This document shows, piece after piece, positions 6,263 to 30,200 of a stretch of 60,027 nt of DNA; positions within the stretch are counted from its first letter, which is position 1, and every line of letters begins with the position of its first letter. The DNA comes from Candidatus Manganitrophaceae bacterium (GTDB taxonomy: Bacteria > Nitrospirota > Nitrospiria > SBBL01 > JAADHI01), in contig JAADHI010000121.1 in assembly GCA_013151935.1 (NCBI GenBank), positions 1 to 60,027 of the forward strand. The letters are read 5' to 3'. Under the pieces are notes generated by a model, which was given only the letters and a program-made list of their open reading frames with translations, was not told the DNA's origin and did not search any database. Both the position numbers and the translations under genes were made by a program.

Positions 6263-7339
6263 TTACACCATTCTTGCAGGCATTATTTTTAAAATGCCTT
6301 TTTTGAGTAAGACCAATAAGAGGAAACCCATCAGGGTCAACATGCCTGCAGCATCTCCTGGTGTTGGTGGTTGACCCCCACCATCTCCCGGACGAATGAG
6401 ACCGCAACCTCCGCCACCGCTGGATGCTCCGCCCGAGTCGCCAGGATCACTGCTGACTGAGGCCTGGGTCTTTGCTGAGGCAAAAACGGTGCTCTGGAAA
6501 TTCCCGCTCGTATCGTATGAAGCGGCGAGGTAATAATAAGTCACTCCTTCAGAAAGTCCCGTATGCTCGACTTCCATCGTGGCACCCGGACTGCCGCTAA
6601 TATCTCCAAAAGATTCACCATCGTTTATATCTGCAGGGAAACCATTGGTTTTGAAGCGGATACGGACACCGCTAAAATCGCTGTCTGATGGATTTGTCCA
6701 CCCCAAGACCACTTTTTGAGTGCTCCCGCTTGCGATAAAACTTTCCACATCTGCCGGAGCACTTGTGTCTGCACTCTCTGAGGCCACGGTTTGAAAGCTG
6801 TTATCGCTTGAGCTGGAAAGATTCCCCGCCGCATCCTTGCTTTTGACGCTAAAATGATAGGTGCTTCCTGCCGAGAGTCCTGTAACAATCTGCTGATGAC
6901 TCATGAGGAGGGTTTCATTTTTTGTGGTGCTGGAACCATAACCATCCGTCAAGCCAAAATCGACTTGCGATGTCGCAGGTTCATCGGTCGTCCAGGTTAA
7001 TGTCGCACTGCCTGTGGTGATGCTCTGTGCAAGAACACTCGAAATTACAGGGCCAGTTATATCCGCGCTAGCACCTGCGCTTGTAAAGCTGCCACCACCA
7101 GAGGTGCTGCTGTTATCTGCAGTATCTTTACTGATGACACGATAATGGTAGACCGTCGATGGACTCAAGCCTGACAAACTTCGACTGTGGCTACTCACCA
7201 AGCTGCTATTTAAAGCAGATAAACTGCCGTAGCTGGTTGTTGTGCCATATTCGACCTGCGAACTTGCGGCTTCATCGGTGCTCCAAGTGACTGTCGCGCC
7301 ATTGGGAGTGATATTCCCGACGTTAATACTCGAAATCAC
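6263..7339 (-). CDS. Fibronectin type III surface protein, C-terminal part (after frameshift)
   Basis: This is the 3' part of the gene that starts at 8304. It encodes FnIII-like repeats 4 to 6 (each beginning D-T/I-S/T-G/A-P and holding VTWSTDEAASSQVEYG-type strands), a Gly-rich linker and a C-terminal tail: GGGGCGLI, then a hydrophobic helix LTLMGFLLLVLL, then KKGILKIMPAR. Gly-rich/Cys, helix and basic end is the layout of C-terminal sorting tags of the CTERM type. The protein frame continues upstream of 7339 to about 7425, where the reading frame breaks. The likely role is an extracellular or cell-surface binding scaffold. Confidence 0.75.
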   Translation of the reverse strand: MISSINVGNITPNGATVTWSTDEAASSQVEYGTTTSYGSLSALNSSLVSSHSRSLSGLSPSTVYHYRVISKDTADNSSTSGGGSFTSAGASADITGPVISSVLAQSITTGSATLTWTTDEPATSQVDFGLTDGYGSSTTKNETLLMSHQQIVTGLSAGSTYHFSVKSKDAAGNLSSSSDNSFQTVASESADTSAPADVESFIASGSTQKVVLGWTNPSDSDFSGVRIRFKTNGFPADINDGESFGDISGSPGATMEVEHTGLSEGVTYYYLAASYDTSGNFQSTVFASAKTQASVSSDPGDSGGASSGGGGCGLIRPGDGGGQPPTPGDAAGMLTLMGFLLLVLLKKGILKIMPARMV

Positions 7340-8304
7340 AGGACCGCTGGTATCGCCTGGTAATGCCGTTGTTGTGAAGGTGTTGTTTCCAGACGTCGCA
7401 AGATTGCTGGCTGCGTCTTTGCTAGCACCCTAAAGTGATAGCTTGTGCCCGGAGACAAGCCTGAGATGTTTTGACTGTGTGCGGTCACTAAACTGGGATT
7501 CAAAGCAGTGAGAGTGCCATACGAAGTGTCTGTGCCGTACTCAATACGGCTATCTGCTGCCTCGTTTGTCGTCCAGGTAATGTTTGCAGCACTCGTACTC
7601 AAATTTCCACTCGCAATGTTTGAAATGGAAGGCGCCGTGGTATCTGGCGCCGCGGTCGTTGTGAACGTCTGATCCCCTGAAGTGGTTATATTTCCTGCCG
7701 CATCACGGCTTAAAACACGATAATGATACAAAGTCAGGTCATTAAGCCCTGTGAGCGCCATGCTGTGGGCGGTCACCATGGATGTATTGAGGGAGGTCGA
7801 GGCACCATAGGCCGTACTCGTGCCATATTCGACTTGGCTGTCAGAGGCCTCGTTGCTCGTCCATGAAATTGTTGCGCCATCATCCGAAATACTTGTGGCA
7901 GAGATATTCGAAACGACAGGGGCTGTTGTGTCTGCACTTGCCAATGTTTTGCTGACTTCAGTTGAAAAGCCACTTTCATTACCTGAAGTATCGAATGCCG
8001 TGACCGCAAAATAATAGGTCCCGGTGTTTAGACCCGGAACGGTATAGGTCGTCACATTTCCGACAGTCGTGGGTGTTCCATAGCTTCCTGAAGATGTGCC
8101 GAAATAAACCTTGTAACCGGAAAGGTCCGATTCGGAATTTGCATTCCAGGATAAAATGGCGCTCTCTGCAAATACATGGGGATTCAAAACAAATAAAAGA
8201 ACAAAAAATGTACTTTGTACAAGAAAAACACTTTTCCATAAAAAAGAAAGATTAAGACTAGAATGAGACCGTAATTTTAATCGTGCCAATAAAATTGCTT
8301 TCAT
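7336..8304 (-). CDS. Fibronectin type III surface protein, N-terminal part (frameshifted)
   Basis: Start ATG 8304 has an excellent GGAGGAG site. A signal peptide (to ...NPHVFAES) is followed by FnIII repeat 1 (about 85 residues) and the near-identical repeats 2 and 3 (SQVEYGTSTAYG and SRIEYGTDTSYG variants). At 7420-7426 one A appears to be missing: adding it restores VLAKDAASNLATSGNN and joins this part to the downstream frame, giving about 680 residues. Whether the change is biological or a sequencing error cannot be told from here. A c-di-GMP-I riboswitch lies in the leader, so expression should follow the second messenger, as expected for an adhesion or biofilm protein. Confidence 0.78.
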   Translation of the reverse strand: MKAILLARLKLRSHSSLNLSFLWKSVFLVQSTFFVLLFVLNPHVFAESAILSWNANSESDLSGYKVYFGTSSGSYGTPTTVGNVTTYTVPGLNTGTYYFAVTAFDTSGNESGFSTEVSKTLASADTTAPVVSNISATSISDDGATISWTSNEASDSQVEYGTSTAYGASTSLNTSMVTAHSMALTGLNDLTLYHYRVLSRDAAGNITTSGDQTFTTTAAPDTTAPSISNIASGNLSTSAANITWTTNEAADSRIEYGTDTSYGTLTALNPSLVTAHSQNISGLSPGTSYHFRVLAKTQPAILRRLETTPSQQRHYQAIPAVL

Positions 8305-8417
8305 ATAATTCTCCTCCATGCTCAAGAGACCGCTTAAGGAGTCCTTTGGCGGTTCGGCGGACATGGAAGAAGTAGATGGACAGAACACGAGAAAAATTTC
8401 TCTAAACCACACAGAGG

Positions 8418-8500
8418 TGATTGTTCTGCCGCCGATTCTTCTGTAGCCCCGTTACTCTGCGTCCCCAGCTTTCGATGGGTTTGCTCTGTGCAAAGGGTTT
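8418..8500 (-). promoter_or_regulatory. c-di-GMP-I (GEMM) riboswitch in the leader of the FnIII gene
   Basis: Read on the minus strand, the leader has GCACAGAGCAAACC (8491-8478), a CCCA stem capped by a GAAA tetraloop, GGGACGCAGAG, then AACGGGGCTAC and a GGCGGCAG segment. These follow in order the conserved blocks of the GEMM-I aptamer (GCACAGGGCAAACC, GAAA loop, GGGACGCAAAGC, GGCAG). It lies about 115 bases upstream of the ATG. CTCCTT at 8341-8336 could pair with the AGGAG ribosome site, suggesting translational control; that part is inference. Confidence 0.85.
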
Positions 8501-8533
8501 CGTGCGGATTTCGTTTAGGATGGGGGTAGAGCA

Positions 8534-8959
8534 AGTGCGATGCCCAATATTTCGAAGAAGACCTAAAAGTACTTCCCGGGCTTTAACTTGATGAATTTAA
8601 ATGGAATTAAAGCTGTTATTCTTTAAAATTTACAAGTATTTTCAAGGAAAACGAGCGTCCAGAGATTACATAAGACTGACTTGTGATGCCTGTCTTATGT
8701 AATAAGCTACCGAGTAAATATGAAAGATATTCCCCAAAACCTCAGTCTGAGAACAAAAAAATCCACAGAAACTCAAAATAGAACTTTAAGACAAGAAATA
8801 AGATAGGGGGATTTGAAGTCCTAGAGGGAAAGCCTATTTCCGCAAGGGACTCCGACTTGGTTCCTTATTATTTTATTCCTCACTTGCTTAAAAAAAGAAT
8901 ATAATGAGGGAAGCCTTCATTGAAGCAATGCTTTTGACGCCAGCGAGAAATGCAGAGAA
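8534..8959. other. Intergenic region with a 12-bp inverted repeat
   Basis: No gene is seen. Perfect 12-base arms (attacataagac at 8665-8676, gtcttatgtaat at 8692-8703) enclose 15 bases and could be a protein-binding site or a terminator-like hairpin. The divergent promoters of the FnIII gene and the SnoaL-VF530 gene must lie in this stretch. Confidence 0.5.
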
Positions 8960-11051: not shown

Positions 11052-11128
11052 TGGTGCGCCCGACAGGAATTGAACCTGTAACCTACGGCTTAGAAGGCCG
11101 TTGCTCTATCCAATTGAGCTACGGGCGC
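11052..11128 (-). tRNA. tRNA-Arg (anticodon TCT)
   Basis: On the minus strand this gives a full cloverleaf: acceptor GCGCCCG/CGGGCGC, D arm with AGCTCAATTGGATAGAGC, anticodon stem ACGGC/GCCGT with loop CTTCTAA (anticodon TCT), T arm with GGTTCAATTCC, and an encoded CCA end. It reads AGA/AGG arginine codons. Confidence 0.97.
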
Positions 11129-27214: not shown

Positions 27215-30200
27215 TTACCTAATGTTTAAAAAGCTTGCGGAGGGATCTTCGAGTACGGGGCGGTGATAGAGATAGCCTTGCGCTTCGTCACAGCCGAGCG
27301 ATTGCAAAAACTGATGCTGCGCTTTTGTTTCAACACCACCGGCAATGACACCGATTTGAAGACTGTGTGCAAGGGTTTTGATGGCATGTATCACCCGCAC
27401 GCTCTCGTTATTTTTGGGTAGGTCTTGTACAAAAGATCGCTCGATTTTGAGACGATGAATGGGCAAACGGCTTAAATGACTGAGTGAAGAATATCCTGAG
27501 CCAAAGTCATCAATGGTGATGTGGACTCCTTTATGAGACAACTGATCTAAGACGTCGATACTGTGTGCGATCCGTTTCATGATGGCCGTTTCTGTAATCT
27601 CGAGCTCCAAGCGTTCGGCCGCTAAGCCCGTTTTTTTTAGGGCATGGAGAATCAAGTTTACGATGTCGCTGCGTTGGAATTGTACCCCGGAAATATTGAC
27701 GGCAACACGTTTTAAGGCTTGGCCTTGTTTGATCCAATTTGCCATTTGAGCGCAAGCCGTTTCGAGTATCCATTGTTCAATCTCTTGAATTAACCCTGAT
27801 TCTTCGGCAAAGGGGATAAACTTATCGGGGAAGAGAAGCCCAAATTCTGGATGGTTCCAGCGCACGAGTGCTTCCGCAGTGGTGACTTGATTTGTTTTTA
27901 GGGTGTACTGCGCTTGATAGTGTAAAACCAACTCATTTTCCCTCAAGGCCTGGGAGAGTGCTTTTTCAAAACTGAGATGTTCAAAGGTTGCCAGAGACAA
28001 AGAAGGTGTAGAAAACTGAAATTTGTTTCGGCCTGCTTTTTTTGCGCGGCTCATGGCCGTTTTTGCTGTTTCCATGAGCCCATCACCATCAGTCGCATCT
28101 TCGGGGTAAAAACTAATTCCGACACTGATATGCAGACGCATTTCATGGTCATTGATCATAAACGTTTCTTCAAAGATAGCCTTCAATTTTTTAACCAAAA
28201 AAACGACATCTTGTGCTTGACGCATCTTTTCCACGAGGATGACAAACTGGTCTCCCTCGAGACGTGCAACGGTATCCTCATCTCGCATGCTTTTTTTGAT
28301 TCGTCGGGCAACTTCTCTTAAGACCCCGTCGCCGACGGCGTATCCCAAGCGTTCGTTAATTTTTCTGAAAAAATCCAGATCAAGCAGAATGACCGCTAGT
28401 TTTTTTTCTTCGCGCTGGCCGTGTTGCAAGGCGTGTTCAAGGCGATCATTAAGCAAAATTTGATTAGGCAACTTTGTTAAAGGATCATGATGACCAAAAA
28501 AATTACGGTTTTTCTGTGAAGATTTGAGTGGAGAAACATCTGAAAAAACAGAAACATAGTTGACTATTTTCTGAGTGGGGCCGCGTAGTGTCGTGATGAT
28601 CGACCAGGTTGGAAAAAGTTCTCCATTTTTGCGTCTTTTCCAAACTTCTCCCTTCCAAAGGCCCTTATCTCGCAAGTCATGGACTTGCAGCTCATAAAAA
28701 CTTTCTGCATGTTTTCCTGACTTGAGCAGGTCTGGCTTTTTACCAAGCACCTCTTCTCGGCTATAGCCCGTAATTTCGCTATAGGCGGCGTTAATTTCAA
28801 TAATTTCATGTTTATCGTTCGTAATAGCAACAGCATCTTCGGTGTTATTCACGGCAATGAGGGATTGATGCAGTTTGGTTTCGACCTTTTTTTGATGGGT
28901 AATGTCCTGAACAATGCCAAAGGAGCGCACCGCTTTTTCGGTATCATCGTAGAAGGTTTCGCATTGTTCGTTGACGTATCTTATGGTTCCGTCGGCCAAA
29001 AGCAAACGATGTGTGATGTTGTAAGGTATTTTATTGATGACAGACTGGGTATAGGCCTGGTCTACTCTCGCGCGATCATCTGGGTGTACCAGTTTTAAGA
29101 ATCCCTCATAAGTGGCCTCCAGTTGTTTGGGCTGTAGACCAAATATTCGATAGATTTCGTCTGACCAAGTCAAACAATTGTCAACGATATCAAGATTCCA
29201 AATTCCAATATGGGCAATCCGCTGGGCCTCTGTCAGGATATAGTCACTTTTGCTCAGTTTTTTGATGGTGCGTAGGATGTAGAGTGTGTGGGGCAATTGC
29301 GCTGCAATTTCTGAAAAAAGGCTGTCTTCATCTTCAGAATATAAATGTGAGGCATTGTCGTAATGGATGCCAAAAATCCAAGGTTTTCCGATCTTTGTTT
29401 TGATCGCGGTACACATCATGGATTGTTCCCCGCTGAGATGCGGATCTTCGCGTGGCCAAGCTGTTTTGAGGTCGCACTTTAGAATTCCTTCGGACGCCAA
29501 GACTTGTTGACAGCGTGCGGGGTTGAGTGGAATGGGGGCCCTGGCATTGTTTGTAGGTAAGTGAGTTCGACTGACCATTTGTACGATTTGATAACCCTCT
29601 CCTTCGAGGTGAGTCGTTTGGATGAGCCAAGCCCGATCTGCACCAAAGCCTTCTAAAACAAGACGCAGCACTTCTTCTAAGAGGTCTTCGTTATAGCTTG
29701 CGCGCAAACAGGCTGCGGCGATACTTTTGAGGACCTTGTTCCGTGTTTCCCTTTGTTTTTGTTTAGAAATATCCCTTGTCATTCCTTCAAAAAAGAGGGG
29801 TTGTTCCTGTTTGTCGTAAACCCACATCCCATCTGTTTGAACCCACTTGCTTTTACCTGTAAGCGTTACGATCCGGTATTGCTGTGATAAGGCTATTTTT
29901 GTTTCCAGCGCATCTCGAACCTGTGTTTGCAGTATTTTCAAATCTTCTGAATGAATCAAAGAAAGATAGCCCACCTGTTTACGGATTAGTGTTGAAGATT
30001 CATGTCCTGTCAGTGAACGTCCGCCTTGACTGATAAAGAGAAGCGTTAAGGGTGTGTCATTTTGACATCTAAAAACCATGCCCGGAAAACGGTGCATCAT
30101 GGACAGCAGCTTATTTTGCTTGAGCAAGGCCGTGGTTTTTTTTTTCAAACGAAGGAGGATAAAAAGAGCGGCACAAAGAAAGACTAAACTGATGATTGAG

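Follow-up and report, generated by a model that had tools for sequence, protein, structure and literature searches.

Which cyclic dinucleotide is sensed by the RNA that precedes a fibronectin type III (FnIII) surface-protein gene in a Candidatus Manganitrophaceae bacterium (assembly GCA_013151935.1, contig JAADHI010000121.1), and with what effect on that gene, is the question raised by this locus. The window analysed was the whole stretch of 60,027 nucleotides of this contig, and the leader lies on its minus strand. A preliminary description had presented it as a c-di-GMP-I riboswitch in front of an FnIII protein gene; the GEMM-I architecture and the FnIII target stood, but the sensing of c-di-GMP came into doubt, as position 20 of the aptamer is A and not G. 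That the element is built on the GEMM scaffold is nearly certain, and a cyclic-dinucleotide riboswitch of GEMM-I architecture located 5' of the FnIII surface-protein gene is well supported. The features recognised are detailed in Table 1.

Table 1. Coordinates in the window of the aptamer, the expression platform and the target gene.
Feature	Position	Strand	Basis or remark
FnIII-repeat surface protein gene, Gly/Cys-hydrophobic C-terminal tail	6263..8304	-	Frame broken near 7415-7440
Complete GEMM-I-type aptamer, A20/G48 class, long P3 tip	8343..8496	-	Alignments to class model R1 and RF03167
P1 5' strand CCUUUG	8491..8496	-	Pairs with CAAAGG, 8343-8348
J1/2 CACAGA, position-20 base A at 8485	8485..8490	-	Sequence, class alignment, 3IRW contact list
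P2 with GAAA tetraloop	8459..8484	-	R1 and RF03167 alignments
A47 (8458) and position 48, G (8457)	8457..8458	-	Sequence and class alignment
P3 5' strand GUAACGGGGC	8446..8455	-	R1 alignment
P3 tip, 83 nt	8363..8445	-	Constrained fold
P3 3' strand, J1/3 and C92 equivalent (8349)	8349..8362	-	R1 alignment
P1 3' strand CAAAGG	8343..8348	-	R1 alignment and sequence
Anti-aptamer hairpin ACCGCCAAAGG/CCUUAAGCGGU, site of the terminator of relatives, no U-run after it	8329..8353	-	Sequence; terminators of relatives
Shine-Dalgarno GGAGGAG	8311..8317	-	SD bases taken up by the UUCUUCCAUG strand when folded without constraint

The 5' half of the aptamer was present in the order described before, with GCACAGAGCAAACC, the GAAA-capped P2 and GGGACGCAGAG on the minus strand, and the pattern CAGAGCAAACC-N6..18-GGGACGCAGAG had a single occurrence in the window and none in 100 shuffles. 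The 3' half had been misplaced. The GGCGGCAG previously taken for it (8433-8426) falls inside the tip of P3, and it was rejected because the alignments to RF03167 and to the class model R1 both give about 8362-8343, past the 83-nt tip; this placement is supported by a U-A pair in P3 of the window at a place where C-G predominates among the class rows. The distance from the aptamer to the ATG (8304) is 38 nt, instead of the roughly 115 bases once given, and the start codon itself proved well placed after its Shine-Dalgarno (SD) sequence. All parts of the GEMM-I scaffold (clan CL00126) are present, namely P1, the GNRA-capped P2 and P3 around a three-way junction, together with both A47 and C92, and P2 shows a single U-C mismatch next to the loop-closing pair. 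Position 48, which is G in the window, is A in the G20 aptamers read. P3 tips measured 16-25 nt in 23 of the 36 distinct class rows; the remaining 13, among them the window, range from 34 to 128 nt. The tip of the window exceeds the commonest form by about 66 nt, and those of three own-genus RNAs measured 57, 58 and 86 nt. A possible extension of P3, pairing GAAGAA (8441-8436) with UUCUUC (8371-8366), appeared in the constrained fold. A sigma-70 scan gave one site, about the same number as in shuffles.

When the whole window was searched at the Rfam gathering thresholds, no GEMM family was matched and a tRNA alone was found. RF01051, the check that the preliminary description had set for itself, was narrowly missed in a search of the own genome, with 31.2 bits against a gathering threshold of 35, and its alignment (8439-8495) was rejected, since it closes the aptamer inside the P3 tip. 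RF03167 (c-di-GMP-I-GGC), searched in permissive mode over the 701 bases 8200-8900, aligned at 8494-8344 with 38.8 bits (E 1.5e-7) and below its gathering threshold of 59. The long P3 tip (83 nt) is a likely cause of the low Rfam score; many members of the A20/G48 class exceed the RF01051 cut-off. R1, which was built from 28 relatives picked for short P3 tips, none of them of the genus of the window, gave 78.4 bits for the window (E 2.3e-20, positions 1-88 of 88), 81.4 to 84.3 bits for three same-genus orthologs and 41.6 bits for the G20 aptamer of the own genome.

The relatives carry two kinds of aptamer, one with G before GCAAACC plus GGGACGCAAAG, and the other, designated A20/G48, with CCUUUG-NU-CAGA-GCAAACC followed by GGGACGCAGAG and then GCCGAGCCGCCAAAGG. 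The view that all A20 matches form one class was rejected, as other J1/2 or 3' sequences occur among them. From 41 A20 elements found by expression, 28 with a matching 3' half were kept and 13 dropped; two of the latter (L099 and L134) are class-like but were missed by the expression, and the other 11 differ in J1/2 or 3' sequence. In the class alignment (n=28) 97.2% of the cells are paired and both sides have changed in 11 of the 22 pairs, including 4/6 in P1, with a covariation of 0.393 versus 0.187 in shuffles and at most 0.137 in slid versions. R1 yielded 63 matches over 45 sequence sources, which fell into two separate groups, the A20/G48 elements, with scores of at least 78.4 bits apart from one partial match at 62.2, and the rest, at 55.4 bits or less. 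The 47 distinct rows comprised 36 of the A20/G48 class, 9 with G20 and 2 (L301, L305) with A20 in another setting. The strict class pattern was found in 66 stretches of the genome collection, and the class occurs in records labelled Nitrospirota, Gemmatimonadota, Acidobacteria, Desulfuromonadales and other Proteobacteria. The own genome also has a second GEMM aptamer, of the G20 type (L001; L051 3907-4003, G000:C38), whose target is a lipoprotein-like gene without a Pfam match that is common to the relatives; a G20 class with different targets coexists with the A20/G48 class in the same genomes. Judged by sequence and covariation, A20/G48 forms a GEMM-I variant class of its own, with a wide distribution and a clear gap to the G20 aptamers that occur in the same genomes. 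No description of it, or of cGAMP riboswitches in Nitrospirota, was found in the literature searched, which mostly excluded subscription papers, among them the two 2015 founding papers on GEMM-Ib.

The binding pocket was compared with that of Vc2 (3IRW), for which the ligand contacts are listed as G14, C15, A16, C17, A18, G19, G21, C46, A47, A48, A49 and G50 (PMC7288161), and from this list the numbering of position 20 was derived. The window keeps all of these contacts, those of J1/2 (G14 C15 A16 C17 A18 G19 and G21) included, except A48, which is G; its position 20 is A, and the base equivalent to position 92 is C. With c-di-GMP-I (RF01051 / RF03167, Vc2) it shares the three-helix fold, the GNRA-capped P2, A47 and the C92 equivalent, and it differs in A20, G48, the 83-nt P3 tip and scores below both Rfam cut-offs. 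The G of the Rfam c-di-GMP-I consensus at position 20 is replaced at 8485 by A, the base that GEMM-Ib has at this position. G20 has been reported as less conserved than A47 (PMC9049102), 4YB1 is the solved structure of a G20A GEMM-I RNA with 3',3'-cGAMP (PMC6274999), and G20A GEMM-I has been used as a sensor of c-AMP-GMP (PMC11352751).

A source of cGAMP was looked for among the GGDEF enzymes. The own genome (2.53 Mb, 171 contigs), which was assigned to the genus of G001 and the order of G017, gave 24 GGDEF matches, and the selectivity residue, read in 23 of them (L117 unread), was Asp in 22 and Ser in one. The Ser enzyme is a GAF-GGDEF protein (GHIMGS, G000:C87:96186-96656) with the Hypr feature of Ser or Thr at the position of PleD D344; as a caveat, judged by spacing it presumably has Arg at the position that is Tyr in GacA. 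In the window itself, 28022-28492 encode a GGDEF domain within a 1009-aa open frame, with GYAVGD (Asp at the selectivity position) and the altered signature EGDQF. Ser or Thr at the selectivity position is the mark of Hypr enzymes and occurs in 0.17% of GGDEF domains (PMC9140294). Orthologs of the Hypr GAF-GGDEF (at least 270 bits) were present in 37 of the 265 class genomes; Ser was read in 29 of the 30 ortholog loci fetched, the 30th codon being AGN, and the matches in G013 and G017, both of which bear the class, contain an in-frame stop. Among 21 genomes, the ortholog was found in 14 of 14 that bear A20/G48 versus 2 of 7 others, two class-free relatives also having it (Fisher P 0.001, confounded by common descent; the elements of the window and L087 are partial matches in this comparison, and membership was drawn also from R1 scores). 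Since G20A GEMM-I binds 3',3'-cGAMP, the A20 pocket together with the Hypr GAF-GGDEF and its orthologs in class-bearing relatives makes cGAMP a serious candidate, and on these sequence grounds we lean slightly towards it as the physiological ligand of the riboswitch. c-di-GMP is a possible ligand.

For other phyla, 30 class loci outside the order were taken, and the Hypr DNA motif was matched in 18 of the 30 genomes. It was accepted by its letters in 15; the matches in G273, G276 and G293 were set aside as likely due to chance. Many of the matches end in AG with the third base unseen, so that Ser is likely, and the location inside a GGDEF was confirmed for the two Gemmatimonadota motifs only. 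Accepted motifs were distributed over Acidobacteria (4/4), Desulfuromonadales and Geobacteraceae (5/6), Deltaproteobacteria (3/4), another Proteobacterium (1/1), a Gammaproteobacterium (0/1) and Gemmatimonadota (2/14), which amounts to 13 of the 16 class-bearing genomes outside both the order and Gemmatimonadota. In 12 of the 14 Gemmatimonadota genomes, 125 GGDEF matches were found, and all 35 selectivity residues read there (30 of 30 loci and 5 of 9 further stretches) were Asp; in the three Gemmatimonadota genomes with only five GGDEF matches each, 11 of the 15 residues were read, and all are Asp. The strongest finding against cGAMP is that Gemmatimonadota carry the class although, in a search that covered GGDEFs, a Hypr motif was recognised in few of them; CD-NTases are another source of cGAMP.

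FnIII repeats were confirmed in the target, as previously claimed, but not as a single open frame: they are carried jointly by the frames 7336-8412 and 6263-7339, which differ in phase. The sorting-like C-terminal tail attributed to the protein matched no sorting-signal family from NCBIfam. A same-genus ortholog (G003, L182) reads through without interruption for 683 aa and ends in a similar hydrophobic tail rich in Gly and Cys, and all four own-genus class members (window, L087, L088 and L089) have an FnIII protein downstream. The fn3 domain was found in 24 of 35 class targets, that of the window included, versus 0 of 19 G20 targets (Fisher P 3e-7, the members being non-independent by descent). 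The class set included the window and excluded L281, which has no ORF, and L296, with a doubtful 70-aa ORF; the G20 set consisted of the 19 G20 aptamers among 23 elements found by expression in loci L001-L071 (the others having A in three and C in one), and ORF starts were chosen by a scoring rule and not from annotation. Other class targets were di-haem oxidoreductases (2) and PD40 proteins (3), and 13 of the 19 G20 targets belong to one lipoprotein-like family. Since G20 aptamers of Geobacteraceae also precede FnIII genes, in tandem with A20 aptamers, the count of 0/19 is valid for this clade only. A20/G48 aptamers were also seen before genes in G022 and G027 (L095, L096), whose starts resemble two members of the target set that match PF06537 (di-haem oxidoreductase).

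Another close known system is the GEMM-Ib of Geobacter (for example Gs1761 and pilM of G. metallireducens), with which the window shares A20, as read in Geobacteraceae loci, a Hypr GGDEF in the genome and a known FnIII target. GEMM aptamers stand before the Geobacter FnIII proteins GSU1945, KN400_1971 and Gbem_1796/1798/1799 as in the window, and 4 of 6 Geobacteraceae proteins chosen for comparison have an N-terminal FnIII domain homologous to that of the window (35-49% identity over 84-115 aa, best E 2e-22), while one gave no match. By eye, such homologous proteins lie behind A20 aptamers (8 of 10) and behind G20 ones as well; A20 and G20 aptamers are often tandem in Geobacteraceae loci, whereas the window has one A20/G48 aptamer. 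In two Geobacteraceae loci (L329 and L330), the genes after similar GEMM aptamers, one G20 and one A20, encode what we take to resemble ribosomal protein L21. GEMM control of Geobacter FnIII genes has been described (PMC2996986, PMC13194489), GSU1945 is an FnIII protein (PMC10599522), and its transcript is named in the set of 13 GEMM-Ib riboswitches whose binding of cGAMP was characterised (PMC8835794). The two systems differ at the base of P2, which is G-C/G-C in the window and C-U/G-G in GEMM-Ib, in J1/2, which is CACAGA in the window but ACAAUA-like in GEMM-Ib, and at position 48, which is G in the window. A20 followed by C-U, with G-G opposite, was read in 10 of 23 Geobacteraceae aptamers, in accordance with the U15-G38 pair of pilM (PMC9262584), and was not found in the window. 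With A20 in common and C-U/G-G absent, the class of the window has the specificity base of GEMM-Ib but not its P2-base feature.

In the most far-reaching reading, to which we assign a probability of roughly 0.45, the A20/G48 RNAs with their G-C based P2 would constitute a second class of riboswitches for 3',3'-cGAMP that evolved independently, outside the Geobacter GEMM-Ib group; Nitrospirota, Ca. Manganitrophus included, would possess a full pathway of Hypr GAF-GGDEF, A20/G48 RNA and FnIII surface proteins, with a separate c-di-GMP G20 regulon alongside. A plain c-di-GMP-I riboswitch that tolerates A at position 20 and receives its c-di-GMP from the many canonical cyclases of the genome deserves serious weight, though we do not favour it. 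It agrees with the many class members above the RF01051 cut-off, with the retention of the 3IRW contacts save A48, with Asp in 22 of the 23 residues read in the own genome, with the lesser conservation of G20 relative to A47 (PMC9049102) and with the Gemmatimonadota, in which the class accompanies Asp-type GGDEFs; a separate G20 class with other targets in the same genomes, the presence of the Hypr ortholog in all 14 class-bearing relatives tested and the cGAMP binding that G20A enables in GEMM-I speak against it.

A degenerating leader, that is, a relic aptamer which has lost its terminator and precedes a gene broken in this genome, appears improbable. The missing U-run, the P2 mismatch, the broken FnIII frame and a stability no better than that of shuffles are what such decay would leave, but the bases of the pocket are preserved, as are the P1 and P3 pairs, including U-A for C-G in P3, three same-genus orthologs retain both the aptamer and the FnIII target, and in a genome that is a draft of 171 contigs the frame change may reflect faulty assembly. 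A chance resemblance with no riboswitch at all would fit the absence of any GEMM match at the Rfam gathering threshold; its probability is negligible in view of the E value of 2.3e-20 from a class model without own-genus sequences and the absence of the pattern from 100 shuffles.

Regarding the mechanism of the cGAMP riboswitch proposed, the aptamer 3' strand GCCGCCAAAGG also forms the 5' arm of a U-run terminator in 26 or more of 39 elements of the class that were picked by hand (mostly R1 matches without repeat copies, plus L073, L074, L076, L095 and L096); the count is a lower bound, since the coordinates of L095 and L096 are rough, which makes their terminator scores invalid, and one terminator of L132 was missed. 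Because this strand is shared with the terminator, the ligand should turn the gene on, as in pilM, a ligand-ON switch in which terminator and aptamer are mutually exclusive (PMC9262584). The same ON switch is seen in relatives of the element, many of which appear to do this job by transcription termination, while the window keeps the hairpin 8353-8329 over the aptamer 3' strand and is without the U-run. The riboswitch of the window is likewise quite probably ligand-ON.

In the minimum-energy fold of the window, UUCUUCCAUG (8371-8362) pairs with CAUGGAGGAG, and the SD bases in that pairing have an unpaired probability of 0.01 for 8 of 10, the last two having 0.03 and 0.21. When the aptamer was forced, at a cost of 8.3 kcal/mol over the minimum, the AUG was opened and GAGGAG still paired with CUCCUU. 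The CTCCTT noted earlier does lie at 8341-8336, and its proposed masking of the ribosome site was borne out in part: CUCCUU pairs with the SD when the aptamer fold is computed, whereas the minimum-energy fold without constraint has the SD held by UUCUUCCAUG, which lies at the base of the P3 tip. The ortholog L087 showed the same SD sequestration and partial release; L088 and L089 did not, and in L089 forming the aptamer increased the pairing of the SD relative to the free fold. The whole-leader fold gave z -1.23, with 22 of 200 shuffles equally good. As the folds of these orthologs are mixed and the leader is no more stable than shuffles, we infer translational control in the window as a model suggested by folding. 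According to this model, in the absence of ligand the aptamer 3' strand would be taken up by the anti-aptamer hairpin, which would free the P3 strand UUCUUCCAUG to cover the ribosome site; with ligand bound, the aptamer would keep both strands, leaving the ribosome site less covered, and the riboswitch would turn on the FnIII-repeat surface protein. The ligand, 3',3'-cGAMP alone or with c-di-GMP, may be made by the GAF-GGDEF with the Hypr serine of the genome.

Enzymes making cGAMP are broadly distributed, whereas riboswitches for it abound above all in Geobacter, and other bacteria have been proposed to have ones still to be found (PMC8835794). The A20/G48 class is a concrete and testable candidate for cGAMP riboswitches beyond Geobacter. 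If cGAMP is indeed the ligand, signalling through cGAMP riboswitches extends past that genus and the c-di-GMP regulons annotated in these groups would need to be split in two.

Upstream of the riboswitch, a perfect 12-bp inverted repeat, ATTACATAAGAC / GTCTTATGTAAT, was observed at 8665-8676 and 8692-8703 with a spacer of 15 nt; its core pattern has a single site in the own genome and none in 10 relatives. The window also contains a tRNA-Arg (tct) at 11052-11128 on the minus strand.
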